Positions 44-42,708 of a DNA stretch of 45,050 nt are shown here, piece by piece (the stretch's first letter is position 1; every line of letters starts with the position of its first letter). The position numbers and the translations under genes were made by a program. The DNA lies in the NCBI GenBank assembly GCA_017503075.1, contig JAFVTU010000023.1:1-45050 (forward strand). The letters are read 5' to 3'. The notes under the pieces are model-generated. The model was not told the DNA's origin, made no database searches, and saw nothing but the letters and a program-made list of their open reading frames with translations. Origin of the DNA: Paludibacteraceae bacterium. GTDB lineage: Bacteria > Bacteroidota > Bacteroidia > Bacteroidales > Paludibacteraceae.

Positions 44-85
44 CCAATAGCGCCATCGGCGCGTCCCATAGCCCAAAGGGCGTCC
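44..85 (-). repeat. Two GGAC-hairpin-TATTGG palindromic elements
   Basis: Read on the minus strand, 66-85 is GGAC, GCCC-TTT-GGGC, TATGG, and 44-66 is GGAC, GCGCC-GAT-GGCGC, TATTGG. They sit in a tandem CAATAGC-type array (about 20-50). The flanks match the other copies in this window, while the stems differ and stay fully paired. Confidence 0.75.
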
Positions 86-96
86 ACTAAACAAAA

Positions 97-140
97 AAAA
101 TGCACTTTTCCCCAAAAAAGTGTATTTTTTTTATTTTTTT
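97..140 (+). terminator. Intrinsic terminator of a gene lying upstream of the window
   Basis: AAAATGCACTTTT and AAAAGTGTATTTT pair around a CCCCAA loop, followed by a T-rich run. No gene lies before it in the window, so it probably ends a transcript entering from the left. Confidence 0.6.
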
Positions 141-175
141 TCTTCAAACTGACAAGTTTTAGCAGTTTGAAGCAG

Positions 176-183
176 TAATTTTG
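176..183 (+). promoter_or_regulatory. Bacteroidota -7 promoter box (TAATTTTG)
   Basis: GCAGTAATTTTGCACC has the same core as the rplS promoter at 12638. No TTTG is found at the usual 20-base spacing, so only the -7 box is supported. It would drive the 39-codon frame at 223 and the ArdC-like gene at 379. Confidence 0.6.
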
Positions 184-222
184 CACCGTCAAACAAAATT
201 AACTACTAAAACTATTACGATT

Positions 223-342
223 ATGCAACTCGAATTCAACTTCAATCAAAAGGATCTGCGCACCAATGTTGCGGAATTGACCAACAACATCTACAGCATT
301 CTTATTTGGATGCAAATTTTGGCGAATCCAACTAAAATTTAA
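223..342 (+). CDS. Small protein, 39 residues, unknown function
   Basis: An ATG frame starts about 40 bases after a -7 promoter box and ends 36 bases before the ArdC-like gene. The product begins MQLEFNFNQK and ends ILANPTKI; it is polar with a short hydrophobic patch near ILIWMQIL. I do not recognise the family. Position between promoter and next gene, and sensible codons, argue that it is translated, either as a small protein or as a leader frame of the downstream gene. There is no frameshift joining it to that gene. Confidence 0.45.
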   Translation: MQLEFNFNQKDLRTNVAELTNNIYSILIWMQILANPTKI

Positions 343-378
343 ATCAAATATTATTCACTTTTTAATTTTTTTACAATT

Positions 379-726
379 ATGACAACTACAATCAACGAGG
401 TGAATACACTCACCACCAACCAGCTCTCATCTAAAATGCACGATTATCGTATGCATCTGCGTACAATTACCGATGGTCTTGTAGAAATGGCGAAGGCAGC
501 AGGCCGCAGCAAATACACATGTAATCAGCTACTTCGCGAGTGCTACAACCTCATCGATGCCGAATTAAAGACTTATGAACAGTGGAAAGAAGAAGGCGCT
601 TATGTTCGCCGTGGTGAGCATGCCTATCTATTTTGGGGTAAACCTGTGACCAACGAACGCGGCTTCAAGTACTGCCCAGTAGAATTCCGTTTCTGCCGCG
701 AGCAAGTCCGCTTCAAACCATCCTAA
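379..726 (+). CDS. ArdC-like N-terminal domain protein, 115 residues
   Basis: The region around residues 66-87 (TYEQWKEEGAYVRRGEHAY followed by LFWGKPV) resembles the W-x(4)-G-x-V-x-x-G-E segment of the single-stranded-DNA-binding N-terminal domain of ArdC antirestriction proteins. The rest of ArdC, its zinc metallopeptidase-like C-terminal domain, is absent, and the protein is about a third of the usual ArdC length. Such proteins normally travel on conjugative elements, but no transfer or integrase gene is visible nearby. It is probably transcribed with the 39-codon frame upstream, and a hairpin terminator follows at 803. The domain assignment is by motif resemblance only. Confidence 0.55.
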   Translation: MTTTINEVNTLTTNQLSSKMHDYRMHLRTITDGLVEMAKAAGRSKYTCNQLLRECYNLIDAELKTYEQWKEEGAYVRRGEHAYLFWGKPVTNERGFKYCPVEFRFCREQVRFKPS

Positions 727-730
727 ACAA

Positions 731-790
731 TCCTATACTACTCTACACTACTCTACTCTACACCATCCTACACAGCGCAAAGCGCTACTA
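731..790. repeat. TACTCTACAC-type array ending in a GCGC hairpin
   Basis: Roughly 10-base units (CTATACTA, CTACACTA, CTACTCTA) run into AGCGC-AAA-GCGCT flanked by CTACACA and ACTACACC. The same array and hairpin context recurs at 3541-3895, where the hairpin is AGCGC-TCC-GCGCT. Confidence 0.7.
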
Positions 791-802
791 CACCACACAA
801 AA

Positions 803-836
803 AACGAGTTGCCCAATCAGGCAACTCGTTTTTTAT
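803..836. terminator. Bidirectional intrinsic terminator between convergent genes
   Basis: AACGAGTTGCC pairs perfectly with GGCAACTCGTT around CAATCA, with A runs before and T runs after. It sits between the ArdC-like gene (plus) and the secreted protein gene (minus) and can serve both. Confidence 0.85.
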
Positions 837-850
837 TACAAACCAACCAC

Positions 851-2362
851 TTAGAGCTGTGCACCCATCACGTTGTAGGTCTTCTCACCGCGGATAATCA
901 TCAGCTGACCATTCTTCATCACTTTCACAGGAATCACAACGGTAGTTACATCCTCTACACCAGTAGTACCACCTGCAATCTTCACAACGATTTGACTTGC
1001 ACGTACTTGAGCAGTAGAAGCAGTGAATACCACACTAGCCGCATTACCTGTCCATGTTCCCACAGGACCAGAGTAGGTATAATCGCCAGTTGATGCAGTC
1101 AAGTTACCAGGACCATACTTAGCATTATCATTTGCAGTACAAGTAAACTCAACAGAAACGATATTACCTACTGTAGATGTCAAAGTCAGCGTTTGATTCT
1201 GATAAATACGGTAATGGCACTCGTCGTTATATTTACTGATAACACCCTTTGTAACAGCCATTGTGATACCGCCTTTGCTTACGCTGTAAGGAGTTTGGTT
1301 AGAAGTATCCTCTGACGCATTACCCTTATCTACATCCGCATCAAATGTCACAGTACCTGCTACTGGTGTATCAGGAGTGTCTGGAGTATCAGGCGTGTCT
1401 GGAGTATCTGGAGTGTCAGAACCACCATTCTCATTCAATGTAATATCCTCATAATCAGCATCTGCATCATATGCATATACCTCCACTACTTGATCAAATT
1501 TGTATGTCTTGCCATCTTCGCCCACATATGAACCCTTGAAAGAGTAGTTACCCTCGTTGTCGGTATTCTTGATGGTCACAGTGCCTACTTCCTCGCCAAT
1601 CATTACAGAGTCGTTCTCACTTGCCCACAGCCCTGCAAAAAGCAAATCATAGGTGCCATTGAGTGCAGTTTTGCTATTTGCCTCTACGATGATATATAGT
1701 TCAGGATAGATATAGTCATATGACTCTTCATCCAAGTTCTTATACAAATCTATATCGTAAAACTTTACACCTTCATACTCATAATAGTAAGCATCAGCAT
1801 ATTGCAAACCAGTGATCTCAACCACATCACCTGTACCAGGATTTGGGTCATCGCCTCCAGGGTTGTCGCCACCAGGGTTATCACCACCACCTTCGCCTAC
1901 TTTATATACATAGAATGGTTTGTATTGAGCATTACCCGTCTTATCAGCATACATGCGATAAAGAGGATTACCATTATTAGCATTCTCATACAAGAAATAA
2001 TCAACACCGCTAAGTGTGCAATACAATACACCACTAGCATTCACATTGCATACACTACCAGTAGCAGCATACTTGAATGTGTTTTTCACGGTTAAAGAGA
2101 TGTATTGTTCTCCATCTTTGAGGAGAACACCACCATCAGCAGCTTCTACTACATACTCTACCCAACCTGAAGCGGCTGCTGTAGCTGTTTTGTTACCATC
2201 CCAACCTGTTACGCCAAGTTCAGCGTCATCACAGTACAATACTACTTTGTCACCTGCAGACAAAGTTGCAATGTCGGTTACCTTTGAATAACCTTCACCT
2301 AAACCTGCAAAACTCATCATAGAGAGGAGCATTGCGCCAAGCATAAGAGTAAATTTCTTCAT
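851..2362 (-). CDS. Secreted multidomain protein with short C-terminal YNVMG motif
   Basis: 503 residues. A signal peptide (MKKFTLMLGAMLLSMMSFA) is followed by a beta-rich domain to about residue 156. A Gly/Pro/Asp/Asn linker (157-178, GGDNP repeats) leads to a second beta-rich domain (about 180-310). A TPD-repeat linker (about 316-333) leads to a third domain (about 337-465). The end, GQLMII then KTYNVMGAQL, matches the ends of the secreted proteins at 14062 and, less well, 6933, suggesting a shared sorting or anchoring signal. No catalytic motif is recognised. The start is 33 bases from the end of recF on the same strand, with no clear promoter between. Likely exported or surface exposed; function unknown. 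Confidence 0.75.
   Translation of the reverse strand: MKKFTLMLGAMLLSMMSFAGLGEGYSKVTDIATLSAGDKVVLYCDDAELGVTGWDGNKTATAAASGWVEYVVEAADGGVLLKDGEQYISLTVKNTFKYAATGSVCNVNASGVLYCTLSGVDYFLYENANNGNPLYRMYADKTGNAQYKPFYVYKVGEGGGDNPGGDNPGGDDPNPGTGDVVEITGLQYADAYYYEYEGVKFYDIDLYKNLDEESYDYIYPELYIIVEANSKTALNGTYDLLFAGLWASENDSVMIGEEVGTVTIKNTDNEGNYSFKGSYVGEDGKTYKFDQVVEVYAYDADADYEDITLNENGGSDTPDTPDTPDTPDTPDTPVAGTVTFDADVDKGNASEDTSNQTPYSVSKGGITMAVTKGVISKYNDECHYRIYQNQTLTLTSTVGNIVSVEFTCTANDNAKYGPGNLTASTGDYTYSGPVGTWTGNAASVVFTASTAQVRASQIVVKIAGGTTGVEDVTTVVIPVKVMKNGQLMIIRGEKTYNVMGAQL
1372..1425. repeat. Tandem 9-base coding repeat (Thr-Pro-Asp linker)
   Basis: The units (GTATCAGGA, GTGTCTGGA and variants) encode consecutive TPD tripeptides on the minus strand. 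A perfect 9-base period could change copy number without shifting frame, altering linker length between two domains of the secreted protein. Confidence 0.75.
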
Positions 2363-2394
2363 AAGCTTAAAATTTTAATAGTTAATATATAATG

Positions 2395-3516
2395 TTAATT
2401 TATCTCGTGTATATTTCCGTTGTTCACTTCAAACACTTTGGCATGTTCGCTATGTGCTGTTAGCAAGGCAGTCAGATGTTGGCGGTCAGTATCGGTAATG
2501 AATATCTGTCCAAACTGTTCACCAGCAACTAGTTGCACTATTCTTTCCACACGCTCGCTATCTAGTTTGTCAAAGATATCATCCAGCAATAGTATGGGCT
2601 TCTGGTTTACTGCATGCACCGAGTTGAGGAACAATGCTTGTCCCAGTTTCATGGCCAACAAATAGGATTTCTGTTGTCCTTGACTACCGACGCGTTTAAG
2701 TGGATAGTCGCCTAGTTTCATCTCCAATTCATCCTTGTGTACGCCTTGCGAAGTCCAACCTAATATCAAGTCGCGCGAGCGTGTACGTGCGAATGCCTCC
2801 GTCAAGTCGCGATCATGCAACTGCGAAACATATTCCAGCGACACCTGCTCTTTTGCGCCCGATATAGCATTATACACCTCTTGAAAATAGGGTGTAAACT
2901 GCTCTATAAACCGCACTCTTTCTTGATATATCGGCATGGCGTATTGCACCATCTGCAACTCCAAAACCTCAAACAAATCCACAGGCAGCTCGTCCAAACC
3001 CACATTTTCGTATTGTTTCAACAGTGCATTACGCTGTTTGAGCAGTGCATTGTATTGAGTCAAGTGCTCCAGATATGCTCGGTTGTATTGCGATATTACG
3101 CCATCTATAAATCGGCGTCGTTCATCGCTGCCTTCCACTACCAGTTCGCTATCTTGTGGCGACACCATCACCAGCGGTATCAGTCCGATATGGTCAAGCA
3201 ATCGCTTGTAATCTTTCTTGCCACGACGAAATTGCTTTTTCACGCCTCTTTTCAGGCCGCAGCTGACGACCTCCTCATCCTCCTCCTTTATCTGGTATCG
3301 TCCTTGCACCATAGCCATCTCCTCATCGTGATGGATGTTCTGGCTATCGATGGCGTTATATGCTGATTTTGTGAAACTTAAGTAGTATATTGCATCCAAT
3401 ATATTCGTTTTTCCCTGCCCATTCAATCCCACGAAACAATTGAGTTTATCCGAGAAGCTCATTCCCGCTTCCCGAATGTTCTTATAGTTCAATATGTTCA
3501 GTTCTCGCAATATCAT
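2395..3516 (-). CDS. recF: DNA replication and repair protein RecF
   Basis: 373 residues, full family length. Residues 30-38 (GLNGQGKTN) are the Walker A loop. GSQGQQKS near residue 287 is the ABC signature, and ILLLDDIFDKLDSER is the Walker B with D-loop region of the SMC-like RecF ATPases. RecF loads RecA at single-strand gaps with RecO and RecR. In many bacteria recF lies beside dnaA and dnaN; here it stands alone, downstream of a sigma-54 regulator gene and a long low-complexity array. No Bacteroidota promoter was found in front of it, so it may depend on read-through or on a promoter hidden in the array. Confidence 0.95.
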   Translation of the reverse strand: MILRELNILNYKNIREAGMSFSDKLNCFVGLNGQGKTNILDAIYYLSFTKSAYNAIDSQNIHHDEEMAMVQGRYQIKEEDEEVVSCGLKRGVKKQFRRGKKDYKRLLDHIGLIPLVMVSPQDSELVVEGSDERRRFIDGVISQYNRAYLEHLTQYNALLKQRNALLKQYENVGLDELPVDLFEVLELQMVQYAMPIYQERVRFIEQFTPYFQEVYNAISGAKEQVSLEYVSQLHDRDLTEAFARTRSRDLILGWTSQGVHKDELEMKLGDYPLKRVGSQGQQKSYLLAMKLGQALFLNSVHAVNQKPILLLDDIFDKLDSERVERIVQLVAGEQFGQIFITDTDRQHLTALLTAHSEHAKVFEVNNGNIHEIN

Positions 3517-3897
3517 TGTTTATTCGAATGCTCGCTTTACTCGCTGTGTAGTGTTGTGTAGTGTTGTGTAGTAGCGCTCCGCGCTGTGTAGCGTTGTATC
3601 GCGGTGGCACTACTCTACACTACTCTATACTACTCTATACTACTCTCTACTACTCTACACTACACTACTCTATTCTACTCTATCCTACTCTATACTACCC
3701 TATACTACTCTATACTACTCTATACTACCCTATACTACTCTACACTACTCTACACTACTCTATACTACTCTATCCTACTCTATACTACTCTATTCTACTC
3801 TATCCTACTCTACACTACCCTATACTACCCTATACTACTCTATTCTACTCCATTCTACTCCATTCTACTCCATTCTACTCCATTCTACTCTATCCCA
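3517..3897. repeat. Long degenerate TACTCTATAC array between two genes
   Basis: Between the regulator stop and the recF start, about 290 bases consist of 10-base units (TACTCTATAC and its variants CTACAC, CTATTC, CTATCC, CCCTATAC, CCATTC). Then comes an AGCGC-TCC-GCGCT hairpin (3573-3585) and GTGTAGTGTT repeats (3541-3571). The array starts within about two bases of the regulator stop codon. No conserved gene, promoter or RNA could be found in it. Open frames across it translate to pure repeats and are not genes. Confidence 0.9.
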
Positions 3898-5064
3898 TCA
3901 CGCGAAGCTCGCCACATCACTCGCCGTAATGGTCTCACCACCCAATATGATGAGTCGCTCCACCACATTGCGCAGTTCTCGGATGTTACCCGGCCAGTTC
4001 CTTTCTTGCAATGCAGCCACAGCCCCCTCATCAAATCCCTTGATCTTCCATCCCTGTTCTTGGCATATCTGCTCTGCAAAGTGTTTGACTAGCAGCGGTA
4101 TATCTTCTTTTCTATCATCCAGCGATGGCACATGTATTGGTATCACGTTCAGGCGATGGAAGAGGTCTTCGCGGAAGCGTCCTTCGGCTATCTCATGCTT
4201 GAGATCTTTGTTGGTAGCTGCTAATACGCGTACATTCACTTTTATCGGTTTGTCGCTACCCACGCGAGTAATTTCATTCTCTTGTAAAGCGCGCAGCACT
4301 TTTGCCTGTGCCGACAAGCTCATGTCGCCGATTTCGTCCAAAAATAATGTTCCGCCATCTGCTTGCTCGAACTTGCCCGCGCGGTCTTTGATGGCACTAG
4401 TGAAACTACCCTTGGTATGTCCAAACAGCTCACTCTCAATCAGTTCGCTCGGTATAGCTGCACAGTTCACTTCCACCATTGGTTTCTTGGCGCGTGTGCT
4501 GTTCTCGTGTATGAGGTGTGCCACCACCTCCTTACCCGTACCATTGGCACCAGTGATCATCACGCGCGCCTCCGTAGGTGCCACTTTCTCTATTATTTCG
4601 CGCACGCGCTCAATGGCTGCACTCTCACCTACCATCTTGTTGCGTGCACCTATTTTCTTGCGTAGTACTTTGGTCTCTTGCACCAGCGACTTATGCTCCA
4701 CTGCATGCTGCGTAGTTACCAATAATCTATTCAGATCCAGCGGCTTAACTATAAAGTCATACGCGCCATTCTTCAGCGCATCCACTGCTGTTTCCACGGT
4801 GCCATGACCCGATATCATCACCACGGGGGCTTCTTCACCGCCTTGCTCTTGTTGGGTTTTGCGGTATGCTTGCAGCACCTCCATACCATCCAACTCTGGC
4901 ATCTTAATATCAGTATAAATCAGGTCGTACTTAGCCGCTAGTGCCATCTCCAAACCAACGCGTCCATTCTCCGCCACATCTACTGTATATCCCTCAAACT
5001 CAAGAATCTCCTTCAGCGTGTTACGAATCGCGCGCTCGTCATCTATTACCAAAATCTTTGCCAT
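3898..5064 (-). CDS. Sigma-54-type response regulator lacking a C-terminal HTH
   Basis: 388 residues from the chosen start MAKILVIDDE. Residues 1-120 are a CheY-like receiver with acid residues D8/D9, phospho-acceptor D52 (YTDIKMPELDG) and K108 (VKP). Residues 144-371 are a sigma-54 AAA+ domain: Walker A GANGTGKE (172-179), loop GSFTSA (219-224, in place of the canonical GAFTGA), Walker B LFLDEIGD, and WPGNIREL (357-364). The chain ends 17 residues after this, so the Fis-type DNA-binding helix-turn-helix of NtrC proteins is missing. A longer frame up to 5133 exists, but it contains the promoter at 5091-5122; translation must start after it, at 5070 or 5064. No histidine kinase is adjacent. 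Confidence 0.9.
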   Translation of the reverse strand: MAKILVIDDERAIRNTLKEILEFEGYTVDVAENGRVGLEMALAAKYDLIYTDIKMPELDGMEVLQAYRKTQQEQGGEEAPVVMISGHGTVETAVDALKNGAYDFIVKPLDLNRLLVTTQHAVEHKSLVQETKVLRKKIGARNKMVGESAAIERVREIIEKVAPTEARVMITGANGTGKEVVAHLIHENSTRAKKPMVEVNCAAIPSELIESELFGHTKGSFTSAIKDRAGKFEQADGGTLFLDEIGDMSLSAQAKVLRALQENEITRVGSDKPIKVNVRVLAATNKDLKHEIAEGRFREDLFHRLNVIPIHVPSLDDRKEDIPLLVKHFAEQICQEQGWKIKGFDEGAVAALQERNWPGNIRELRNVVERLIILGGETITASDVASFA

Positions 5065-5090
5065 AGCCATCCAAATTATATAATTTGGTG

Positions 5091-5122
5091 CAAAATTACT
5101 AAATTCTTCCGACATATGCAAA
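5091..5122 (-). promoter_or_regulatory. Promoter of the sigma-54 regulator
   Basis: On the minus strand, TTTG (5119-5122) lies exactly 20 bases from TAATTTTG (5091-5098). This fixes the gene start downstream and gives a leader of only about 15-20 bases. The -33 region reads TTTGCATATGT, an extension shared with several other promoters here. Confidence 0.85.
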
Positions 5123-5174
5123 CATTTATTCAAAAAAAAGAAATATATACCTGTTGTACCCTGTGAACCTTGGT

Positions 5175-5282
5175 CTCCTTGCCACCTTTACACCTTACAC
5201 CTTACACCTTTACACCTTACACCTTTACACTTTACACCTTACACCTTTACACTTTACACCTTACACTTTACACCTTACCCCA
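5175..5282. repeat. CACCTTA/CACCTTTA tandem array
   Basis: About 13 irregular 7-8 base units (ACACCTT, ACACCTTT, ACACTTT) run between divergent promoters. They contain no start-proximal signal and no stem. Together with the promoter at 5335 they account for the gap between the regulator and the next gene. Confidence 0.85.
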
Positions 5283-5334
5283 CACCCCAATATTTAACAA
5301 TATTTTGCTAATAACAAATTTTCTTTGCAAAATA

Positions 5335-5366
5335 TTTGCATATATCAATTATTTTTCGTACCTTTG
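5335..5366 (+). promoter_or_regulatory. Promoter of the small surface protein at 5454
   Basis: TTTG (5335-5338), 20 bases, TACCTTTG (5359-5366). The -33 box continues as TTTGCATATAT. Confidence 0.85.
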
Positions 5367-5453
5367 CGCCCGATTGTTGTGGATTTCCTATTTTTGTGGA
5401 AAATCTGCATTAAAAACCTGATTATTAATACATAAAAACACATACACTTGCAT

Positions 5454-5870
5454 ATGAGCTTGATTTCTACACGCAACTCATTATTTTCACCCCTTACGCA
5501 CGCGCATCCAAGAGGCGCAATACTAGCGATTTTACTGCTATTTTTTACTATTCAAGTAGGTGCTCAGGAGTTTTCCTCCACCTCTGCTTATCGTGTTCAG
5601 CAGATTGACATGTCTGCTCAATCCGTGCAAGTAGAGGGTTATCAGCAATACCACTCTACTATCTATGAGCCATTCTCATCATCCACACCTAGTTATGGCG
5701 GCAGCAACAACGACCAATCATCGGGTATGGGTGGCAGGAGAAACGCTTTTGGTCACCCAGACGATCCTAATAAAGATCCAGAATCCCCTATCGGTGAGCC
5801 ATGGATTATGCTGGTATTTGCAGCGTTAGTTGCTGTAGTTATCGCACTTCGTAAGAAGCAACATGCCTAA
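5454..5870 (+). CDS. Small exported protein with C-terminal membrane anchor
   Basis: 138 residues from the ATG at 5454; a TTG six bases earlier is less likely. A long N-region with arginines leads into a hydrophobic stretch (AILAILLLFFTIQVGA) ending in a signal-peptidase-like GAQ. A low-complexity Ser/Gln/Tyr segment and an acidic DDPNKDPESP segment follow. The C-terminus is one hydrophobic helix (WIMLVFAALVAVVIAL) with a basic tail RKKQHA. This architecture is common in small Bacteroidales proteins of unknown role. It has its own promoter and is followed by a repeat-filled gap. Confidence 0.7.
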   Translation: MSLISTRNSLFSPLTHAHPRGAILAILLLFFTIQVGAQEFSSTSAYRVQQIDMSAQSVQVEGYQQYHSTIYEPFSSSTPSYGGSNNDQSSGMGGRRNAFGHPDDPNKDPESPIGEPWIMLVFAALVAVVIALRKKQHA

Positions 5871-6200
5871 TGATTGCCCCTTGGTTGCCACCTATCTACA
5901 TAGGGACTTCATAGGGACTTCATAGGAACTTCATAGGGACTTCACCGAAGGATTAGCATAGGACAACTAAGGGATGTATAAGGGATGTATAAAGAATATA
6001 TATGGGATGCCAATAGCCAATAGCCTATCGCCCAAAACCAACCAACATAACAGCAACACCCCATCGGTTCAGTCCTCGGCGCTATCCGCCGAGCATAACA
6101 ATAACAATAACACCCGCAACAACGTCGCAGAGCGACAAATAACATAGATAACAAAACAACGTGGCTTCGCCACACAAAACGTCGCTAAGCGACCAAGAAG
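5871..6200. repeat. Repeat-filled gap: 11-base arrays, CAATAGC array and four hairpins
   Basis: The region opens with AGGGACTTCAT units (about 5900-5945, 11 bases) and AAGGGATGTAT units (about 5967-5995). A CAATAGC-type array follows near 6008-6032. Then come four perfect hairpins in AACAAC-rich spacer: CTCGGCG/CGCCGAG (6075-6093), GTCGC-AGA-GCGAC (6124-6136), GTGGC-TTC-GCCAC (6161-6173) and GTCGC-TAA-GCGAC (6181-6193). No promoter consensus or additional gene was found. The last hairpin is 7 bases from the ORF6N start and may affect its translation. Confidence 0.85.
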
Positions 6201-6836
6201 ATGCCAACAAAAAGAGCACATAAAGCAGTTGTAAAAAAGGCGCAAACCACGCCTCTTCTCCCTATATCTATGGAAGATGTGCAAAACAAGATTGTTATCT
6301 TGCGCGGTGAGCCTGTTATATTAGATCGTGACGTTGCTACATTATACGGAGTAGAAACACGTGAAATTAATCAAGCAATAAAGAATAACCCTGGAAAATT
6401 CCCAGCAGGATATACTTATATACTTAATAATCAGGAAGTTGCAGAGATGAGATCAAAAATTTTGACCACATCCTCAGAAACTACTGAAAATGAGAAGGTT
6501 AACGTAAATATAACTAAAAGTCACTATAATCCTACGGCTCTTACAGAGAAGGGATTGTATATGATGGCGACCATATTGAAAAGTGAACGAGCCACTCAGA
6601 CTACTATCGCCATTATTGAGACGTTCGCTAAAACCCGATATTTGAAACGTGAATTAGTGGCACTACATAAAGAAACTGACTCAACACAAGCATCCGAAAA
6701 GCTGAAGCGCTTTGGAGAAGTAATCGCAGACCTTGTGATGCCAGATTTGGAAACCTCCGAAACAGAGTCTACATTAGAACTAGATTTCTTTATTGGGAAG
6801 CTGAAACATACTGTCAAACGGACAAAGAAACAATAA
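6201..6836 (+). CDS. ORF6N domain protein (phage-type DNA-binding)
   Basis: 211 residues. Residues 24-110 match the ORF6N pattern: a start like VQNKIVILRGEPVILDRDVA, then TLYGVETREINQAIKNN, KFPAGYTYIL and, further on, TALTEKGLYMMATIL. ORF6N domains occur in phage and mobile-element proteins and are thought to bind DNA. The last 70 residues are charged with a basic KRTKKQ end, and no second known domain is visible. It stands alone between two hairpin-rich gaps, without a phage neighbourhood or promoter consensus, so it is probably a domesticated or remnant phage gene. Confidence 0.85.
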   Translation: MPTKRAHKAVVKKAQTTPLLPISMEDVQNKIVILRGEPVILDRDVATLYGVETREINQAIKNNPGKFPAGYTYILNNQEVAEMRSKILTTSSETTENEKVNVNITKSHYNPTALTEKGLYMMATILKSERATQTTIAIIETFAKTRYLKRELVALHKETDSTQASEKLKRFGEVIADLVMPDLETSETESTLELDFFIGKLKHTVKRTKKQ

Positions 6837-6932
6837 CAGCAAAACCAACGTCGCAAAGCGACATACAACATAGAATATTAACCCTAGTCTATAGCCTATT
6901 GCCAATAGCCTATAGCCAACAGAAAAAAACAT
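6837..6932. repeat. Hairpin GTCGC-AAA-GCGAC and CAATAGCC array
   Basis: GTCGC-AAA-GCGAC (6850-6862) in AACCAAC/ATACAACATAG context repeats the hairpin type found just before the ORF6N gene, so the gene is bracketed by it. A CTATAGCC/CAATAGCC array follows (6891-6920). Confidence 0.75.
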
Positions 6933-9900
6933 ATGAAACACAATCTACTTAAATCGGTTATCATTTCAGTAATCCTTCTAATGGGAGTTTCTAACGCATG
7001 GGCGTATGAAAATTTCAACGAGATTTGGGGCACTTACAATATTGGAGGTAATGACGAAGGTGCTGCATTTTCTTCTAACAAGGACTTAGGAGTTGTATCT
7101 AAATTTACTATTCAAGCTTTTTATCTGAAGTGTAAAGATAATTGGGGGGCGAGTAGGACTTGCTGGACTGCCGGTGCATTGTACTATGAGGTCAACGGGG
7201 GAGGATTTACAGAAGTTATTAATACTGCTACAGATTGGAAACCAGACGGATGGGCAGAAGCAGAGTACCAATTCAAGAAAGAAAACATGAATCTTACCTT
7301 AGCTACGAATTCTGGTGAATACACAGTGAAATTCTACGGAAAAGTCTGGGGCGATAGAGATACATATTTAAGTAACAATGGAAACAATTATGAATGGACA
7401 TTTACAATAAATCCTCCTGATATAACAAATATCCAAGTTAATGCAACAGGTTGTATTGGAGGTATAGGTACGCAACAAGATCCATATATCGTAGCATATG
7501 GAGCATCATTAACATTAACAGCTTCAGTGACAAATAGCGATGCAAACTCAAATACGCATTATAAATTTGGGAATAAAGATGCCAGCACAACAAACACATA
7601 TACTATTTCAAACATCACTAATTCTGATAAACAGTCGCTAACTATCACTGCTCAAAACATCAATAAAACTGACAACAGTTTGAAAGGAAATAGTAAAACA
7701 ACGACAATTTACTACAAATATTCGCCACTATACGTTTATGTTAATGGTACAAATCATCTATTTGATAACGACACAAAGAAAGTTACTGTTGCACTTACCC
7801 AAAATAATGGCGACGAAACGTACGCATTCAAAATCCATGACAATTTCGGCCATTGGCTAGGTAACAATGGAACTATGGAGCGTGGAGGGAATGCTGTTCA
7901 TAGTGGAGGTTGGACAATGAGTGCTGGCGCTGAAGATTGCAAGCTGAAAGCAGATTTAACCGGTGAGTACACATTTACTTTCATGCCTGCAACGAACAAA
8001 GTAACTGTCACATATCCTCAAAAATCATATTTTATCGCAGGTTCATGGGATAATTGGGCAGGAACAGCACCTTCATTCGTGGATGCTAGTACACCTGTTT
8101 CCATCTACCTAGAAGCAGATCAAACCTATAGTTTCAAAGTCGCTGACTTGACTGCTAATGCAACATGGTATGGCAATAATGGAACTATGACACGCGCCAA
8201 TTCCACTGCCTGGACAATGACTAATGGAGCAAACAATTGCCAAATTTATGCGGATCTCTCTGGTAACTACACATTTACCTTTGATAAATCTACTAAGAAG
8301 TTGACCGTCACATACCCAACCAAAGTAACTTTAGGTTATTGCGAGTTTGGACAATACGGAATAGAATACGATGGCACAACATATTATTCAAAACCCGATG
8401 AGAATGTAGAAATCAACATACCACGTGGTGCTTCAGTACGAGTGTTAGAAGGAACACCTCTTAATAACGCGTACACAGGCGGAGTATTAATGGTCTTACC
8501 TACCAAAGTTCCAAATGTAGAAAACACACCCATCACCATTGAAGGCGATACGAAGTTTGATGATATGTTCGTAACGAAAGCTTCGCATACGGTATATCTG
8601 AATGTACCAAACGACTGGACAACAGCAAAAATATACGCATGGAATGAGGATGGAAATACCACCTTAGAAAACCCAAAATCTATTGATATAAACGGTAATA
8701 CATACTACGAATTTAGCATCCCTGCGGGATATAATAACTTTGAATTCCGCACTAGTGATGACACCAAGAGAACTGCTAGTTTCCCATTTGGTATTCCTCT
8801 TAATAAGGTCAATTGTTATACTATCACAAACACTGTAACCCAACATACGGGGTACAAGGTCTACTCTGGCACTTGGGGCATTCTTCCTGCACAAGAAGGC
8901 GATTACCGATTGCTTTATGTGGAGCAAACTGTTGAATATGGAGAAATAACATTTGACAAATCACACCCTTCTGACATCGTCAAGCTAACCAACATTGGCG
9001 ACAAAGATATCGTTAGCCTACACCTATATAATGAACGCGCGGAAGGAGTCAACGGTATGAACAACGCTGCGGTTATTTTGCAAAGATGTACAGGTTACGT
9101 TGAAGGCGTAGCACAGTGGGAAGAAGTTGAGTACCACATGGTGTACAACCGCCTATTCTCCGAAGCATCTGCTGCCTTATTGCCAGGACGTAGAAACACC
9201 GTAGAGTTGCGAGACCACGATGGTTTAGAGGTAATCAAAGCAGTAGCTGACAGCGAAGAACACGACTATGGTTCTGGCGTTTGGAACTTCACCATCCAGA
9301 AGACTAACGAAAGTGCTACCCTACTCCTCGACGAAAATAACCTCGAACCTTACGAGGGCAACTACTATATCCGTACCAATAATACTGCAGGTGGTTGGAA
9401 AAATTACATGCAACCTGACAACTACATGACCTTCTCACAATATGCAAAAGATAATAGTGGCTTTTCACACTACTACTGCAAATGGATTAACCATAATGGT
9501 GATGGAGATGGCGGTACTGCACACGCAAATGTCAAATTTATGGTTGCAAATGACTATGCCACTAATTTGGCGAAAGAATGCGCACAAGATGACTACACAT
9601 TAGAGGATGGTATATTGTTTGAAGATGCCAATGTCCGTTGGTCATGGGATGTTGTAACCAACAAAATCTCGCGCGCGTATATACGAGGTGCATATGATGG
9701 TCATGGACAACGATTAAATAACATCGTATTGGATTATACCACTGGTGGTTTAACCACCCCTCCCGATGTGACATTAGACGATAGAGGTGACTGGATTTAC
9801 CAAGTAGATGTAACGGATGTTGAACCTGGCGCCACCTTAACTTCACTAACAGCTACTTATCCATCAAAATCAAGTGGAGAAAAAGAATATCAGTACGATG

Positions 9901-11426: not shown

Positions 11427-11482
11427 GGCGCAGCTATATGTTTAGTGGACGCCGCAAAACGGCTACTGTTTAGGGTTTAGAG
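11419..11482. repeat. Stop-codon hairpin plus GGAC-hairpin-TACTG element
   Basis: TGCGC-TAAG-GCGCA (11419-11432) holds the stop codon TAA of the preceding gene in its loop. It is followed by GGAC, GCCG-CAAAA-CGGC, TACTG (11447-11468) and TTTAGGGTTTAGAG. The second hairpin is a full member of the GGAC family; the first shares only the right flank (CTATATGTTTAG). Confidence 0.75.
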
Positions 11483-11496
11483 AAAACACTATAGAA

Positions 11497-11533
11497 AAAA
11501 AGACAAGAGTTGAGCATCACGCTCAACTCTTGT
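11497..11533 (-). terminator. Intrinsic terminator of ddh
   Basis: ACAAGAGTTGAGC and GCTCAACTCTTGT pair perfectly around a 5-base loop. Read on the minus strand the hairpin is followed by a run of T (the A run at 11494-11501), so it ends the ddh transcript. Confidence 0.8.
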
Positions 11534-11581
11534 TGTAGATTATCTAATTGTCTGAAAGCCCCGAAAGGGCTTCCAACAACC

Positions 11582-12439: not shown

Positions 12440-12469
12440 GTGGTGTAATGTTAACTAGTGTGGTCTTTT

Positions 12470-12515
12470 CTATTATTGTATCTAGTGCATCTAGTGTATC
12501 TAGATTTCCTAAATT
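12470..12515. repeat. TATCTAGTGC 10-base array in the ddh leader
   Basis: Units GTATCTAGTG, CATCTAGTGT and ATCTAGAT lie between the ddh promoter and start codon, inside the predicted 5' untranslated leader. The rest of 12440-12545 shows no stem or known regulatory RNA. Confidence 0.65.
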
Positions 12516-12545
12516 GACTATATTATCTAAATAACCTCGAGGGTG

Positions 12546-12576
12546 CAAAATTACACATTTTTTCTGAAACAACAAA
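12546..12576 (-). promoter_or_regulatory. Promoter of ddh
   Basis: On the minus strand TTTG (12573-12576) is 19 bases from TAATTTTG (12546-12553). The leader to the ddh start is about 100 bases. Confidence 0.75.
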
Positions 12577-12613
12577 AGGGAAGAAGCAAAAAGATGATTT
12601 TTTAGCAAAAATA

Positions 12614-12645
12614 TTTGGTCAATCCAAAAAAAAGCAGTAATTTTG
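12614..12645 (+). promoter_or_regulatory. Promoter of rplS
   Basis: TTTG (12614-12617), 20 bases, TAATTTTG (12638-12645). The spacer (GGTCAATCC, A run, GCAG) is nearly identical to that of the tRNA-Gln(TTG) promoter at 18998. Confidence 0.88.
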
Positions 12646-12649
12646 CACC

Positions 12650-12752
12650 GATTTTCGACTATAGTCTCTGGCGATCAGCATAGAGTACGTATGATTGCGG
12701 CTCGAACAGTAGTGTATACTATAGTTATTTAACCCATTAAACAAACAACGAA
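12650..12752 (+). promoter_or_regulatory. Possible structured L19 leader
   Basis: About 100 bases separate promoter and rplS start. The octamer ACTATAGT occurs at 12658-12665 and 12718-12725; being self-complementary, the two copies can pair and enclose about 52 bases. Ribosomal protein genes often carry autoregulatory leaders, and this may be one. The fold is inferred by eye. Confidence 0.4.
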
Positions 12753-13106: not shown

Positions 13107-13107
13107 T

Positions 13108-17737: not shown

Positions 17738-17783
17738 GGACGCCCATTGGGCTATTGGATAATGGACGGCTAACGCCTATTGG
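17738..17783. repeat. Two GGAC-hairpin-TATTGG elements after tyrS
   Basis: 17738-17758: GGAC, GCCC-ATT-GGGC, TATTGG. 17764-17783: GGAC, GGC-TAAC-GCC, TATTGG. They are spaced by ATAAT and begin two bases after the tyrS stop. Confidence 0.8.
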
Positions 17784-19311: not shown

Positions 19312-19365
19312 GTTTAAAGTTTAGAGGACGCTCGCACAGCGAGCTACAGTTTAGAGTTTAAAGGC
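19312..19365. repeat. GGAC-hairpin-TACAG element in a TTTAGAG array
   Basis: GGAC, GCTCGC-ACA-GCGAGC, TACAG (19326-19349), flanked by GTTTAAAGTTTAGA and TTTAGAGTTTAAAG. Confidence 0.8.
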
Positions 19366-20056: not shown

Positions 20057-20105
20057 GTTTAGAGGACGGCGCGATGCGCCTACTGTTTAGTGTTTAGAGT
20101 TTAGT
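20056..20105. repeat. GGAC-hairpin-TACTG element before pth
   Basis: GGAC, GGCGC-GAT-GCGCC, TACTG (20064-20085) in a TTTAGAG/GTTTAGT 7-base array that ends 3 bases before the pth start codon, so the array replaces the usual ribosome-binding region. Confidence 0.8.
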
Positions 20106-20672: not shown

Positions 20673-20717
20673 GTTTAGAGGACGCTGCTAATGCAGCTAT
20701 TGTTTAGTGTTTAGAGA
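20672..20717. repeat. GGAC-hairpin-TATTG element between pth and the S4 gene
   Basis: GGAC, GCTGC-TAAT-GCAGC, TATTG (20680-20702), flanked by AGTTTAGA and TTTAGTGTTTAGAG. The element fills almost the entire intergenic gap. Confidence 0.8.
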
Positions 20718-21573: not shown

Positions 21574-21616
21574 AGACCGCTACGCTGTTGGATATTGGAC
21601 CGCCTTCGGCTGTTAG
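21574..21616. repeat. Two diverged hairpin elements (TGTTGG and TGTTAG variants)
   Basis: AGAC-CGC-TAC-GC-TGTTGG (21574-21591) and GGACC, GCC-TTC-GGC, TGTTAG (21597-21616). The layout is that of the GGAC family with a changed right flank. They lie just before the nth start, so a longer nth frame beginning at a TTG here is not real. Confidence 0.6.
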
Positions 21617-39740: not shown

Positions 39741-39776
39741 AAAAAATCCACAAGCGACTGTTTGGGTCTTGTGGAA
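39741..39776 (-). terminator. Terminator in the metK leader (expression platform)
   Basis: On the minus strand TCCACAAG and CTTGTGGA pair around a 13-base loop, followed by TTTTTTT, before the metK start. The CAAG arm is also complementary to CTTG at the end of the aptamer, allowing an exclusive alternative pairing. Confidence 0.75.
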
Positions 39777-39778
39777 AA

Positions 39779-39832
39779 CAAGTTTTTAGCATTATTTTAT
39801 AGAGGTCGCAAGCAGTCCAAATCTATCCTCTT
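39779..39832 (-). promoter_or_regulatory. SAM-II-type riboswitch aptamer
   Basis: On the minus strand the P1 arms GAGG (39827-39830) and CCTC (39802-39805) enclose a loop with GATTTGG and TGCTTGC. They are followed by TATAAAATAATGCTAAAAAC. This order, GAUUU...UUGC in the loop and AUAAA..GCUAAAA after P1, matches the SAM-II pseudoknot consensus known from alphaproteobacteria and Bacteroidota. The CTAAA can pair with TTTGG in the loop to make the pseudoknot. It lies between the metK promoter and metK. Confidence 0.82.
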
Positions 39833-39845
39833 TCAAAATCGGGTG

Positions 39846-39877: not shown

Positions 39878-39879
39878 CA

Positions 39880-40190
39880 AAGCGAACATTATTTTCAAAA
39901 AAGATAGACTTTTGTCTATTGAATATGTTCATCTACTGCTCGTTGGAAGCTTGCTTACATAAGAGTACGTAGAAGAGCATATTCAGAAGGCGAAGCCGTA
40001 TTTTTCAAAAAAGTGCGAGCGTGCGAGGTATATACCCGCATTTTTGTAGTAACTTTGCATACATTGTAGCTAAATCCCTTCTATGATTTCGAGGTGGGCT
40101 CGTGTTCACACGAGGTCGGTGCCCTCGAAATCTGTCCTCTCCTGCAGGCGGAGTCCGAAATGTATCCTCACACTACAGCGCAGCGATCTA
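39880..40190. repeat. Gap between metK promoter and holA with TTCGAGG element
   Basis: No gene is visible. 40086-40131 is a palindromic element: ATTTCGAGG (40086-40094) and CCTCGAAAT (40123-40131) enclose hairpin CTCGTG-TTCA-CACGAG (40099-40114). It matches the copy at 37302 in its ends. Outside it, ATACAT and ATGTAT (around 40060 and 40160) could pair. A TAACTTTG at 40050 has no partner -33 box. A small GGCGAAGCC hairpin lies near 39989. Confidence 0.75.
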
Positions 40191-41228
40191 TCAATGCAAA
40201 ATCTTATAAATTAGTTCTTTCCACAGGTCCGAATCCTTCGCACTCGGATTATTGATACCCTTCAATCGCGCATCTATCTCACGGAAATAGCCAATGATAG
40301 CAAAGGTTTTGCCCGCAGAGAATCGGCGTGCTGCTGCCGCATAATCCTTCACAAAAAACGGCGACACCCCCAACGCACTAGCCGCTACTCGATCACTCTT
40401 ATCGGGTAGGTAGTGATAAATCATCAAGTTAGCAAAGAAGCCATACAATATTCCCAACTCTTTCACCATTGGGTGTTCCTTAGCCGACGCAAAGTACTGC
40501 GTGATACGATTGGCTTTAACCACATCCCCTTTAATCAATGCATCTTGCAACTCAAACACATTAAAATCCTTCGATATACCGATATTACGCTCCACCAAAG
40601 CAGCATCAATCACTTTCACTCCCTCGGGACGACCGTCAATCAACTTCTGCAACGCTCCCACAATTTGTGTCAAATCCGTACCAATACTATCGGCAAGGAT
40701 CTTTGTTACCTTTTCATCTATTCGTACCTCATCGCCATCAGCTTTTAGCTCTGCATTGCGTTGTGCCACATAGTCACGAATCCATTTCTCTACTTGATAA
40801 TCACGCAATGGTTCTGACTCCATCAATATGCCACCCTTCTTCTCCCAGTTCTTAAACAGGTTCAATCGTTTATCTGGCGAACCGTATTTATAGCAGAACA
40901 CTAATATCGTCGAAGGCTGTGGATTATCCATATACATCGCTAATGCATCCCATTTCTTGATGTTCTGTGCCTCTTTCACAATGATTACTTTGTATCCACC
41001 CATCATAGCAAAACCGCGTGCCGCACCAATCACGGGCGACACATCGCCACCGCTCAAATCCTTGCCATAGATGATTGTTTGATCAAACTCACGCGCCATT
41101 TCATCCAACACATTCTGCTCAATATACTCTGCCACCTTATCTATATAATAAGGTTCTTTTCCACAAAGCATGTACGCAGGTGCATACTTGCCCTGCTTCA
41201 AACCAATCATCACTTCTTCGTACTTCAT
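40191..41228 (-). CDS. holA: DNA polymerase III subunit delta
   Basis: 345 residues. APAYMLCGKEPYYIDKVAEYI at the N-terminus, the AAA-like fold without Walker A, FNVFELQDALIKGDVVKA and the C-terminal AAARRFSAGKTFAIIGYFREID domain fit HolA, the clamp-loader subunit that opens the beta ring. The start overlaps the radical SAM gene stop by four bases (ATGA). Confidence 0.92.
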   Translation of the reverse strand: MKYEEVMIGLKQGKYAPAYMLCGKEPYYIDKVAEYIEQNVLDEMAREFDQTIIYGKDLSGGDVSPVIGAARGFAMMGGYKVIIVKEAQNIKKWDALAMYMDNPQPSTILVFCYKYGSPDKRLNLFKNWEKKGGILMESEPLRDYQVEKWIRDYVAQRNAELKADGDEVRIDEKVTKILADSIGTDLTQIVGALQKLIDGRPEGVKVIDAALVERNIGISKDFNVFELQDALIKGDVVKANRITQYFASAKEHPMVKELGILYGFFANLMIYHYLPDKSDRVAASALGVSPFFVKDYAAAARRFSAGKTFAIIGYFREIDARLKGINNPSAKDSDLWKELIYKILH

Positions 41229-41908
41229 CCTACTCCTAAATCTGTATTGTTAATTAATATCTCTATTTTCTTTGATTGTTTCAATGTCGGATACACTTCC
41301 TCTACAAACCATTTCGCCAAGTCATTATCCCGCTTGACTGAGGTACTATTCTCGCAGAAAATATTCACGCTCGCATATTCAAAGTACTGCTCCGCCAATG
41401 CGATGTCCCTCAATATCCGTTCTTTGGTATCGCCTTTCGTGCAACATAGCAAACACACACCATGAAAGTATTTTGCCATGTCCGTAGGCGTAACATCTTC
41501 ACTTATTCCCTTTTTCCATTTCCTGCGTAAGTTAGCATCAAAACTCTCCACCCCACAGCGAAACTTCACCTCTACCCCATCAAATTGCTCTGCAAACTTC
41601 GCCAACTTGTGGCGATACATATAGTGCGCTTCAAACCAGAGCGTATGAATATTCTTCTCTTTCACCACTTCCTTAATCATTCCCAACGTCCGCTCATCCA
41701 ACTCCATTGCCGAGCCTGAGTTGATCACATCCAACACCCCATACACACCCTGCACTTGTGACAACACCTCTCTATTGACTGCAAAGGGATCATCACTCAC
41801 ATCCTCATGATAGTCGCAGAAAGTACATTTATTCCACTTACACCCCGTCCCTTGCAACAGCACAAACTCCCGAGGTAACACAGTATCTATCAACGCGTAT
41901 CTTTCCAT
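41225..41908 (-). CDS. Radical SAM protein, possible queuosine salvage enzyme
   Basis: 227 residues. GTGCKWNKCTFCDYH holds three cysteines spaced C-x4-C-x2-C, a widened form of the radical SAM cluster motif C-x3-C-x2-C. INSGSAMELDE and FRCGVESFDANLRRKWKKGI, CLLCCTKGDTKERI belong to a partial TIM barrel that binds SAM. It is short for the superfamily and has no extra domain. The upstream partner gene is a queuosine precursor transporter 53 bases away, with palindromic elements in between. That context suggests a part in queuosine salvage, comparable to the radical SAM queuosine lyase QueL of clostridia. Identity with QueL is not established. Confidence 0.75.
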   Translation of the reverse strand: MERYALIDTVLPREFVLLQGTGCKWNKCTFCDYHEDVSDDPFAVNREVLSQVQGVYGVLDVINSGSAMELDERTLGMIKEVVKEKNIHTLWFEAHYMYRHKLAKFAEQFDGVEVKFRCGVESFDANLRRKWKKGISEDVTPTDMAKYFHGVCLLCCTKGDTKERILRDIALAEQYFEYASVNIFCENSTSVKRDNDLAKWFVEEVYPTLKQSKKIEILINNTDLGVG

Positions 41909-41917
41909 AACCTATCT

Positions 41918-41955
41918 CCTATAGCGGCTCTGCCGCGTCCAATAGCGAAGCGTCC
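41918..41955. repeat. Two GGAC-hairpin elements between radical SAM and transporter genes
   Basis: Minus strand: 41918-41940 is GGAC, GCGGC-AGA-GCCGC, TATAGG; 41939-41955 is GGAC, GC-TTC-GC, TATTGG, the shortest stem seen in the family. Confidence 0.7.
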
Positions 41956-41961
41956 TATATC

Positions 41962-42708
41962 CTATAACCTTTTCCGTATCGCAGAAATCACCGCATACGC
42001 CATCGGTGTACCGAACACTGCCTCTATCAACAACTTCGACACATACTGGAATGCTATCATCAACATTAAATCGCGTGCAGAGACGGTTCCCGCAAAAGCA
42101 ATCAGCACAAATGGTAGAGAGTCAAACACATACGCCACTGCTGAACTTCCTATAGTACGCACCCACAAGCGTTTGCCTGCCGTCCATTTCTTAATCTTCT
42201 CCATTAGCCATGCATTGGACAGTTCGCCTAAGAGGAAACCCGTCAATGATGCTAACACGATACGAGGGACATAACTAAACATCGTATTATACGCTTGTGC
42301 TGTAGTATCCAGATAATCAGGCGATGGCAGCCATACACCAATCTGCGTGCAGATTACTACAACGAGATTGCATAGAAATGTGGTAAAAATCACTTTGCGA
42401 GCGGTCTTGTATCCCCAAATCTCGGTCAGCACATCGCCCAACATATATGCAAAGGGAAATGTAATAGTACCCGCATCAAAATAAAACAGATTCCAAAGAC
42501 CAATTACTTTCACTGCCATGATATTAGACACCACATACAGCGTCACAAACAATGCAGTTACCACAATAAAGGAAGTATTCTTGCCTCTTGCCTCTAAACT
42601 GTAGCTCGCTTGCGAGCGTTCTGTAGGCGCATTTGCGCCGTCCTCTAAACGGTTGGCATCCGCCAACACGCGGTTTTTGAAAGGGTTTTCCGCTACCTTT
42701 TTTTCCAT
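41962..42708 (-). CDS. Queuosine precursor transporter (YhhQ/VUT family)
   Basis: 248 residues. From residue 44 (SFIVVTALFVTLYVVSNIMA) onward there are about six membrane helices. FYFDAGTITFPFAYMLGDVLTEIWGYK is split across positions 74-100 and is the family signature. LSNAWLMEKIKKW and DSLPFVLIAF also belong. YhhQ proteins import queuine or its precursors preQ0/preQ1. Unusually, residues 20-39 (RLEDGANAPTERSQASYSLE) are encoded by two palindromic repeat elements lying in frame in the cytoplasmic N-terminal tail. No alternative start between the repeat and the first helix is available. It is first gene of a likely operon with the radical SAM gene and holA. Confidence 0.9.
   Translation of the reverse strand: MEKKVAENPFKNRVLADANRLEDGANAPTERSQASYSLEARGKNTSFIVVTALFVTLYVVSNIMAVKVIGLWNLFYFDAGTITFPFAYMLGDVLTEIWGYKTARKVIFTTFLCNLVVVICTQIGVWLPSPDYLDTTAQAYNTMFSYVPRIVLASLTGFLLGELSNAWLMEKIKKWTAGKRLWVRTIGSSAVAYVFDSLPFVLIAFAGTVSARDLMLMIAFQYVSKLLIEAVFGTPMAYAVISAIRKRL
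42591..42650. repeat. Two GGAC-hairpin-TACAG elements inside a CDS
   Basis: Minus strand: GGAC, GGCGC-AAAT-GCGCC, TACAG (42621-42643), then GAAC, GCTCGC-AA-GCGAGC, TACAG (42599-42621), flanked by TTTAGAG on both sides exactly as in the intergenic copies. They are read through in frame by the transporter gene. Confidence 0.88.

Follow-up and report, generated by a model that had tools for sequence, protein, structure and literature searches.

Introduction

The bacterial palindromes closest to the element described here are the Rickettsia palindromic elements (RPEs) and the repetitive extragenic palindromes (REPs). RPEs, present in Rickettsia and also in Wolbachia, lie between genes and in frame in conserved genes, where insertion is apparently tolerated, and form families of 105–150 bp with a conserved peptide (PMC2229807, PMC10969869). 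REPs, tagged GTAG or CGTC, are palindromes of 20–40 bp in which one end bears a tag of four unpaired nucleotides, found in gaps between co-directional or convergent genes with some copies in genes, and those with the CGTC tag are said to lack a dedicated transposase (PMC3733652). Here we analyse a 45,050-nucleotide stretch of DNA, hereafter the window, which is contig JAFVTU010000023.1 (positions 1 to 45,050) of a Paludibacteraceae assembly (GCA_017503075.1) and carries a dispersed unit of about 20 bp, with GGAC on its left, TAYWG on its right and a hairpin of variable sequence in between. In our view, held at about even odds (a probability of roughly 0.5), these units form a family of tiny palindromic insertions that fold as one-strand DNA, the fold and not the stem sequence being what is kept or copied.

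The initial annotation of the window had likened the units to both known groups, and each likeness holds in part. With RPEs they share placement both in intergenic gaps and, in frame, within conserved genes, the latter making this likeness closer than the annotation could have known. They do not share the length or the family consensus, as the units measure about 16–24 bp and have varying arms. Short constant feet, 7-bp linkers, the lack of any constant stem and a loop rule that depends on stem length also set them apart. With REPs they share the 20-bp scale, the presence of a tag and the location in gaps, whereas their tag is GGAC, their stems of 2–6 bp vary within one genome, their tandem units are joined by TATTGGAC-type linkers, and a gene resembling those of REP-associated tyrosine transposases (RAYTs) is neither present in all carriers nor flanked by units. 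Since the RPE length and consensus and the REP tag, stem and flanking features all fail, we file the element as neither. The terminal inverted repeats of miniature inverted-repeat transposable elements (MITEs) are also lacking, as the GGAC and TAYWG feet are not inverted repeats of each other.

More distant likenesses concern single features. Heptamer arrays such as TAACTGA, of Beggiatoaceae, Cyanobacteria and some Bacteroidetes, are likewise built of tandem 7-bp repeats and lie in gaps close to start codons (PMC4679880), but the arrays studied here differ in sequence between sites and contain hairpin units, and period-7 arrays occur in non-carrier relatives as well. The d(GCGNAGC) mini-hairpins, described for synthetic oligonucleotides (PMC4686876), have the same sequence as one strand of the minimal unit; a search of the open-licence literature showed no natural dispersed use of this motif and no description of the present element. 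Mitochondrial hairpin elements, in other organisms, are also dispersed hairpins, and the mitochondrial palindromes of Nematomorpha share the location in coding genes, but those reach 284 bp, and what their two arms encode is conserved parts of proteins rather than insertions (PMC6649704).

Recurrence and anatomy of the units

The genome to which the window belongs (G000) is a 2.06-Mb Bacteroidales assembly of 30 contigs, the window being one of them. Fourteen sites had been listed in the initial annotation, and all of them are present with a paired stem: nine have the strict form (GGAC, a stem of at least 3 bp, a loop and TAYWG), one ends in TATGG (66–85), one has a 2-bp stem (41940–41955), one begins with GAAC (42599–42621) and two have the feet GACC..TGTTR (21575, also with a 2-bp stem, and 21598). 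That annotation had staked its proposal on a count above chance and on stems that pair in other copies, and both were found. In a set of 319,068 bases, made up of the window and 15 further stretches of G000, one of them chosen for a known match, the strict form occurs 25 times against once in the reversed sequence, and other letter orders of GGAC give 0–5 elements in place of the 25. Across all of G000 the pattern TTTAGNGGACN(9-26)TAYWGTTTAG has 22 matches (control 0), two of them in contig C29, which duplicates window bases 1–19,959, and GGACGN(6-20)CTATTGG has 65 (control 2). Three of these 65 come from the stretch of C29 that duplicates the window, and a few are unpaired.

The consensus unit, of about 16–24 bp, consists of G[GA]AC, a stem with G as its first and C as its last base, a loop mostly of 2–5 bases, and TAYWG followed by TTTAG, TATTGG or similar; the hairpin plus T run of an intrinsic terminator is not seen. 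Units stand singly within 7-bp arrays (TTTAGAG) or in tandem, joined by linkers such as TATTGGAC, and some have the alternative feet GACC..TGTTAG or GATC..TGTAG. Rfam assigns those of the window to no family, and when stretches from 12 relatives were searched de novo for hairpins with different feet, no foot pair exceeded 4 counts.

Pairing was followed in 2.29 Mb of related DNA, which was partly fetched by means of the element itself, so that 132 of its 228 copies come from element-fetched loci. Among sites defined by their flanks alone, 196/327 have at least four outer pairs, against 4/120 in the reversed sequence. The 228 copies present 48 distinct arms, none of them constant as in a REP family, the commonest being GCCC (46), GGC (18), GGCGC (17), GGCG (16) and GCTCGC (15), followed by GCCGC (14), GCGGC (12), GCGCC (10), GGCAC (9) and GCCTC (9). 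Pairing is thus retained while the stem sequence changes, as had been proposed from the window, but the stems are less free than they look, as these ten arms make up 166 of the copies. Twenty stems have a single mismatch: C.A 6, T.G 5, C.C 3, A.C 2, G.G 2, T.T 1 and T.C 1.

The loop depends on the length of the stem

Loops of 3 nt read TNC in 38/42 units with a 2-bp stem, in 11/13 with 3 bp, 22/46 with 4 bp, 5/67 with 5 bp and 0/25 with 6 bp, whereas, among the 16,634 GCNNNGC occurrences in this DNA as a whole, 1,442 (8.7%) have TNC. In the 2-bp units the first loop base is T in 42/42 and the last is C in 38/42, the middle base being T, G, A or C; these 42 units, orthologs included, reduce to six distinct sequences (four TNC types plus TTT and TGT, each one transition away) and so are not 42 independent events. 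Loops of 4 nt behave similarly, being TNNC in 5/6 units with 2–3 bp, 4/7 with 4 bp and 0/7 with 5 bp. With other feet the TNC rule is looser (10/15 for GACC..TGTTAG and 12/14 for GATC..TGTAG).

The other strand of the short units reads GC-GNA-GC and GC-GNNA-GC, and in the 2-bp unit it is d(GCGNAGC), an exceptionally stable DNA mini-hairpin. The rule is one-sided: the GNA form accounts for 49/55 of the 3-nt loops at 2–3 bp on this strand only, and on the top strand GNA is found in 0/55 of these units against 14/67 at 5 bp. DNA mini-hairpins are described as GNA or GNNA loops closed by at least two G-C pairs, with melting near 78 °C for GCGAAGC (PMC4686876), and we take the stability of the 2-bp unit from this source. 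A demand on the loop that fades with longer stems is what a stability threshold would produce, and the dependence on stem length fits such a threshold for a DNA hairpin on the strand with the GTCC 3' foot.

RNA folding of the 2-bp unit gave no structure for either strand. In RNA letters, TNC with the following G spells UNCG, an RNA tetraloop with a usual closing pair, but in units with stems of 2 and 3 bp a C follows, so this closing pair is missing; TNNC loops cannot be UNCG. As there is no RNA fold, no UNCG closing pair and no wobble bias among the few mismatches, a DNA hairpin is favoured, and the sequence pattern suggests that the unit acts as a one-strand DNA hairpin kept for its stability and not for its sequence, which presumably folds as single-stranded DNA in the cell.

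Distribution across genomes

The element is restricted to one Bacteroidales genus (records titled Paludibacteraceae), being dense in about 15 close species and sparse in some others. The strict pattern is absent from 20 relatives of the first sample, and a scan of 358 genomes of the family gave matches above control within the genus only. The 14 genomes with the nearest pth-like protein (86–99% identity; this name and that of the rplY-like ORF 19406–19993, ORF standing for open reading frame, were assigned by eye) all have matches, from 3 to 31. In sparser and more distant genomes, G041, G051 and G108 have 7, 7 and 3 matches, with paired elements among the matches listed; G120 and G173 have 8 and 4 pattern matches, G042, G050 and G005 have one each, and the three listed for G009 are unpaired. 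A genome-collection scan returned at least 109 stretches; all 80 among the matches listed are Bacteroidales records, mostly Paludibacteraceae metagenome-assembled genomes from ruminant and horse gut, with one labelled Bacteroidaceae. Carriage by phages was considered and dropped, as viral contigs gave 0 matches.

Tandem Repeats Finder arrays of period 7, 11 and 14 occur at 62, 63 and 40 per Mb in carriers and at 46, 55 and 42 per Mb in stretches of other species of the genus. At one locus (L229, 4038–4866) four TTTAG-type elements lie within 830 bases, apparently inside a larger tandem duplication.

Placement and in-frame insertion

Placement was evaluated for 61 clusters on stretches not returned by the element search, some contigs having been chosen for matches, with ORFs called by a simple longest-frame rule. 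Gaps between co-directional genes hold 28 clusters in sense and 2 in antisense orientation (p ~9e-7), and many units stand directly past a stop codon. Clusters inside ORFs are antisense in 14 cases and sense in 6 (p 0.12), or 14 against 2 for the non-TTTAG type, and the remainder lie in convergent gaps (6), divergent gaps (3) and at edges (2). Called ORFs, 1.45 Mb in all, contain 20 clusters, while the 0.22 Mb that lie outside them contain 39, a contrast in density expected from insertion plus purifying selection. The replication strand was not readable from GC skew.

As in RPEs, units inside genes are carried in frame by conserved proteins. Nineteen element-bearing frames were translated, and the ten submitted to Pfam all have a known family: AroA twice, TruA, Mfd, LigA, RecQ, PriA, a glycosyltransferase twice and Vut_1, the last with an insertion in the window (42599–42643) that is kept in G081. 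RecN, RecJ and an M16 peptidase are, as we take them by eye, among the other translated frames. The feet encode SLED..YSLE in sense and SNSP..RPIA in antisense orientation, while the hairpin-coded part varies, and the encoded peptides are probably neutral for the host proteins.

For LigA, 22 genomes were searched and 20 used, as G103 and G081 gave short, unrelated-looking matches only. Three linkers of the protein vary in length and content between carriers, and contain hairpin-coded SLEDGA..YSLEVKG, array-coded KGERLKVKG-like, antisense SNSP..RPIG or other sequence; in G099 there is an additional insertion within the hairpin loop. Seven of the genomes do not belong to the dense group, and in these the linkers are mostly shorter; three of the seven, G041, G051 and G108, nevertheless have some elements.

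A separate kind of palindrome, of the CCCTCC..GGAGGG type, occupies the same gaps in relatives (loci L095, L093 and L098) and also occurs outside the dense group, in outgroup loci such as L117 and L113. A TPTPSLKGRE-like peptide in a LigA linker of G102 may derive from a palindrome of this type.

Orthologous sites differ by whole blocks

Comparison of orthologous gaps, which the initial annotation had proposed, was carried out and revealed blocks present or absent, loop changes and wholesale replacement. At 17738..17757 the loop is GTT in G176, and G081 has a 7-bp array; the neighbouring unit at 17764..17782 is replaced by GCCGC-AA-GCGGC in G176. Upstream of the rplY-like gene the unit is present in G000 and G176; G079 and G096 have a TTTAG array that lacks it, with 23 bp missing in the alignment along with other array differences; G102 has only GTTTAGAGTTTAAAGG there, and the other genomes have unrelated arrays. 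In the gap that separates the rplY-like gene from the pth-like one, the same hairpin occurs in G000 and G056, G060 has loop AAA and foot GAAC, the stem is GCCGC in G099, GCGTC in G102 and in G098 also other than that of G000, the right arm is lacking in G104 and G101, and only the array is found in G176 and G081. Five relatives have 7-bp arrays and no hairpin at 20680..20702, and the G081 ortholog of the variant unit at 40173..40188 contains three such units. In a comparison of G079 with G103, one genome has an insert of two hairpins where the other has a TTTAGTG array, and the borders on either side match.

Over all ortholog pairs, some of which were counted from both ends, the partner lacks the element in 103, is identical in 28, differs in the loop only in 14, in the arms at the same length in 7 (4 of them two-sided only), in stem and length in 10 and in the number of units in 11. 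Loops change more rapidly than arms: when the 33 same-length pairs are each counted once, changes are found at 17/104 loop sites against 13/298 arm sites. Units differ between species as whole blocks, which are present, absent or swapped.

Candidate enzymes

A Y1 or RAYT-type partner had been suggested for the element, and G000 does encode a RAYT-like Y1 protein (Table 1), which matches NCBIfam REP_Tyr_transpos at E 9.8e-10 (38.5 bits, cut-off 80) and Pfam Y1_Tnp at 24.5 bits (cut-off 23), with weak likeness to solved IS200-type transposases (E 0.27). The Y1 searches covered 178 genomes of the genus, 15 dense carriers and 163 others. The PF01797 profile gave weak matches in 3/15 dense carriers (G000, G060 and G098), a result that we rejected as a sign of Y1 absence, because the G000 protein as query found relatives in 8/15; Pfam had missed most relatives, given that this query matched 127/178 genomes. 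Identity is 65–66% in G060 and G098, and matches are weaker in G101, G176, G096, G081 and G099; there is no match at E 0.001 in G056 and G080 (98 and 94% complete), G059, G079, G102, G103 and G104. Several genomes are 62–90% complete, so absence in one of them means little. As 119/163 of the other genomes also match, many over the C-terminal part only, occurrence of the protein is not linked to that of the elements, and the ~1.5 kb around its gene contain none of them in G000, G060 or G098. A possible partner is thus encoded in the genome of the window, but neither its presence in carriers nor its surroundings tie it to the units. Two palindromes of a different type, CTCGGCG-TTAATT-CGCCGAG and GCTCGGCG-CTAATT-CGCCGAGC, lie in frame within the gene itself.

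A reverse transcriptase as writer of the units was rejected, since RVT_1 was found in 9/29 genomes, including 7/15 carriers but not G000 or G099, a distribution that indicates no common partner. SbcD (TIGR00619) scored above cut-off in 2/29 genomes of the genus, most carriers giving weak partial matches only, whereas 13/14 control genomes match, 8 of them above cut-off. An explanation of the restricted distribution by loss of SbcCD was likewise rejected, SbcD being nearly absent from carriers and non-carriers alike.

Features of the window

The units of the window, their in-frame host gene and the RAYT-like gene are collected in Table 1.

Table 1. Units and associated genes in the window, with the RAYT-like gene elsewhere in G000
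Position	Strand	Feature	Context
45..66	-	GGAC-GCGCC-GAT-GGCGC-TATTG	then TATTGG heptads
66..85	-	GGAC-GCCC-TTT-GGGC-TATGG	tandem with 45..66
11447..11468	+	GGAC-GCCG-CAAAA-CGGC-TACTG	TTTAG context, past stop of ORF 6933-11426
17738..17757	+	GGAC-GCCC-ATT-GGGC-TATTG	immediately past stop of ORF 16441-17736
17764..17782	+	GGAC-GGC-TAAC-GCC-TATTG	
19326..19349	+	GGAC-GCTCGC-ACA-GCGAGC-TACAG	upstream of rplY-like ORF 19406-19993
20064..20085	+	GGAC-GGCGC-GAT-GCGCC-TACTG	between rplY-like and pth-like ORFs
20680..20702	+	GGAC-GCTGC-TAAT-GCAGC-TATTG	past stop of ORF 20109-20672
21575..21590	+	variant GACC-GC-TAC-GC-TGTTG	other strand has GNA loop
21598..21615	+	variant GACC-GCC-TTC-GGC-TGTTA	
40173..40188	-	variant GATC-GC-TGC-GC-TGTAG	beyond the sites of the initial annotation
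41919..41940	-	GGAC-GCGGC-AGA-GCCGC-TATAG	
41940..41955	-	minimal unit GGAC-GC-TTC-GC-TATTG	d(GCGAAGC) on the opposite strand
41962..42708	-	host gene, Pfam Vut_1	two elements (42599-42643) encode N-terminal peptide RLEDGANAPTERSQASYSLEARG
42599..42621	-	GAAC-GCTCGC-AA-GCGAGC-TACAG	in frame within ORF 41962-42708
42621..42643	-	GGAC-GGCGCA-AA-TGCGCC-TACAG	in frame within ORF 41962-42708
L336 425-1534 (contig C5 of G000)	-	RAYT-like Y1 protein, 369 aa	HVH motif, C-terminal extension

A 15-mer of the element at 66..85 recurs at two more places of G000, and one of the two is in the stretch of C29 that duplicates the window. Rfam finds in the window only two tRNAs and a SAM-II riboswitch aptamer at 39776–39836 (-), with 53.4 bits against a gathering score of 44. 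A 10-bp tandem array of ACTACTCTAT, with ~29 copies, occupies 3609–3893, between ORFs 2395–3516 (-) and 3929–4807 (+). The 7/8-bp array CACCTTA/CACCTTTA at 5183–5278 is 22 bp shorter in contig C29, which is otherwise identical to window bases 1–19959, and this may be an array polymorphism or an assembly difference. We discarded C29 as a strain comparison, as its sequence is the same as the window except for these 22 bp.

Possible origin of the units

A family of insertion units kept for their shape would work as follows. The unit would fold as single-stranded DNA on the GTCC-side strand, for example when that strand is exposed in replication or repair, and the fold, rather than any fixed stem, would let a copy be kept, or be copied from one site to another with the short feet and 7-bp linkers in common; as any stable stem would serve, stems would vary, and copies in gaps or tolerant protein loops would survive. 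The copying step might be a template switch between short direct repeats or the action of a hairpin-specific enzyme, the RAYT-like Y1 protein being one candidate, and the near-absence of SbcD in the genus may aid the persistence of palindromes. The element would then work like a relative of REPs and RPEs for which shape matters and the stem does not. We are more tentative, and rather doubtful, about the stronger form of this proposal, in which the unit is selfish or mobile and recognised by shape, a natural GCGNAGC-type one-strand mini-hairpin copied by a hairpin-specific enzyme or a tolerant replication step.

Several observations weigh against insertion units kept as DNA folds. A DNA hairpin by itself does not account for the sense bias in operon gaps, with which an RNA function would agree; an energy model with DNA parameters, too, gives no fold for the 2-bp unit; and the 2-bp units come down to the six sequences noted above. 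No enzyme is tied to the elements by the Y1/RAYT, RVT_1 and SbcD profiles that were searched, SbcD is lacking in non-carriers too, and G059, one of the two genomes with SbcD, is a carrier. Direct repeats flank the units, but they belong to the 7-bp arrays, which blur the junctions, so no target-site duplication is proven.

The bias of 28 to 2 is the best evidence for hairpins that act in the transcripts of operon gaps, through stability, processing or translation uncoupling, with RNA pairing under selection; the many units directly past a stop codon agree with this, and REPs are interpreted likewise in PMC3733652. We nevertheless consider an RNA element unlikely, since the 20 mismatches, a small sample, have no wobble bias on the sense strand (C.A 6, T.G 5, A.C 2), and units of the non-TTTAG type inside ORFs are mostly antisense (14 to 2, although 14 to 6 with p 0.12 over all in-ORF clusters). 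In addition, the TNC rule has no RNA counterpart at 2–3 bp, the 2-bp unit being unfolded as RNA on both strands and the UNCG spelling lacking its usual closing pair. A transposase handling DNA hairpins would, on the other hand, account for the one-strand DNA rule, and non-autonomous elements mobilised by such an enzyme, a RAYT-like Y1 HUH protein or another, as REPs and MITEs are, would have the fixed unpaired GGAC foot, the special strand, the 20-bp size, the dispersed copies and the filled and empty sites that we observe. G000 encodes a candidate with the HVH motif and G060 and G098 encode relatives, but 7/15 dense carriers give no match at E 0.001, 119/163 non-dense genomes do match, PF01797 alone reaches 3/15 carriers, and no unit lies near the gene in three genomes, while elsewhere REPs or inverted repeats are said to border RAYT genes (PMC3733652). 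A constant stem and inverted ends are lacking as well, and mobilisation of this kind seems to us unlikely.

Least probable, in our judgement, is that the palindromes are written without any selection, one arm being copied onto the other by snap-back or quasi-palindrome template switching. Such homogenisation of arms is documented in other organisms (PMC8604942, PMC3820800), the stems are mostly perfect, and a few orthologs differ on both arms together, as in GGCGC/GCCGC. Against this, loop-only changes between orthologs (14) exceed equal-length arm changes (7, with 4 two-sided only, some pairs being counted twice), the arm vocabulary is small, and the stem always ends at the same foot, unlike the open ends of snap-back synthesis; a bacterial family-A polymerase fragment, moreover, failed to extend 2-bp snap-back ends, which human Pol theta could extend (PMC11292364).

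Implications

Dispersed palindromes are usually classed by the sequence of their stem, whereas here the stem is free and stability seems decisive; the loop rule is a readout, from sequence alone, of a DNA-level requirement on one strand. The genus also offers a natural case of repeated in-frame insertion of peptides into conserved enzymes such as DNA ligase, and its filled, empty and swapped alleles across some 15 related species make the spread of tiny palindromes testable. If the stronger and more doubtful form of the proposal is the correct reading, these bacteria would carry protein-coding palindromic insertions far smaller than RPEs, in the form of a selfish or mobile unit recognised by its shape.

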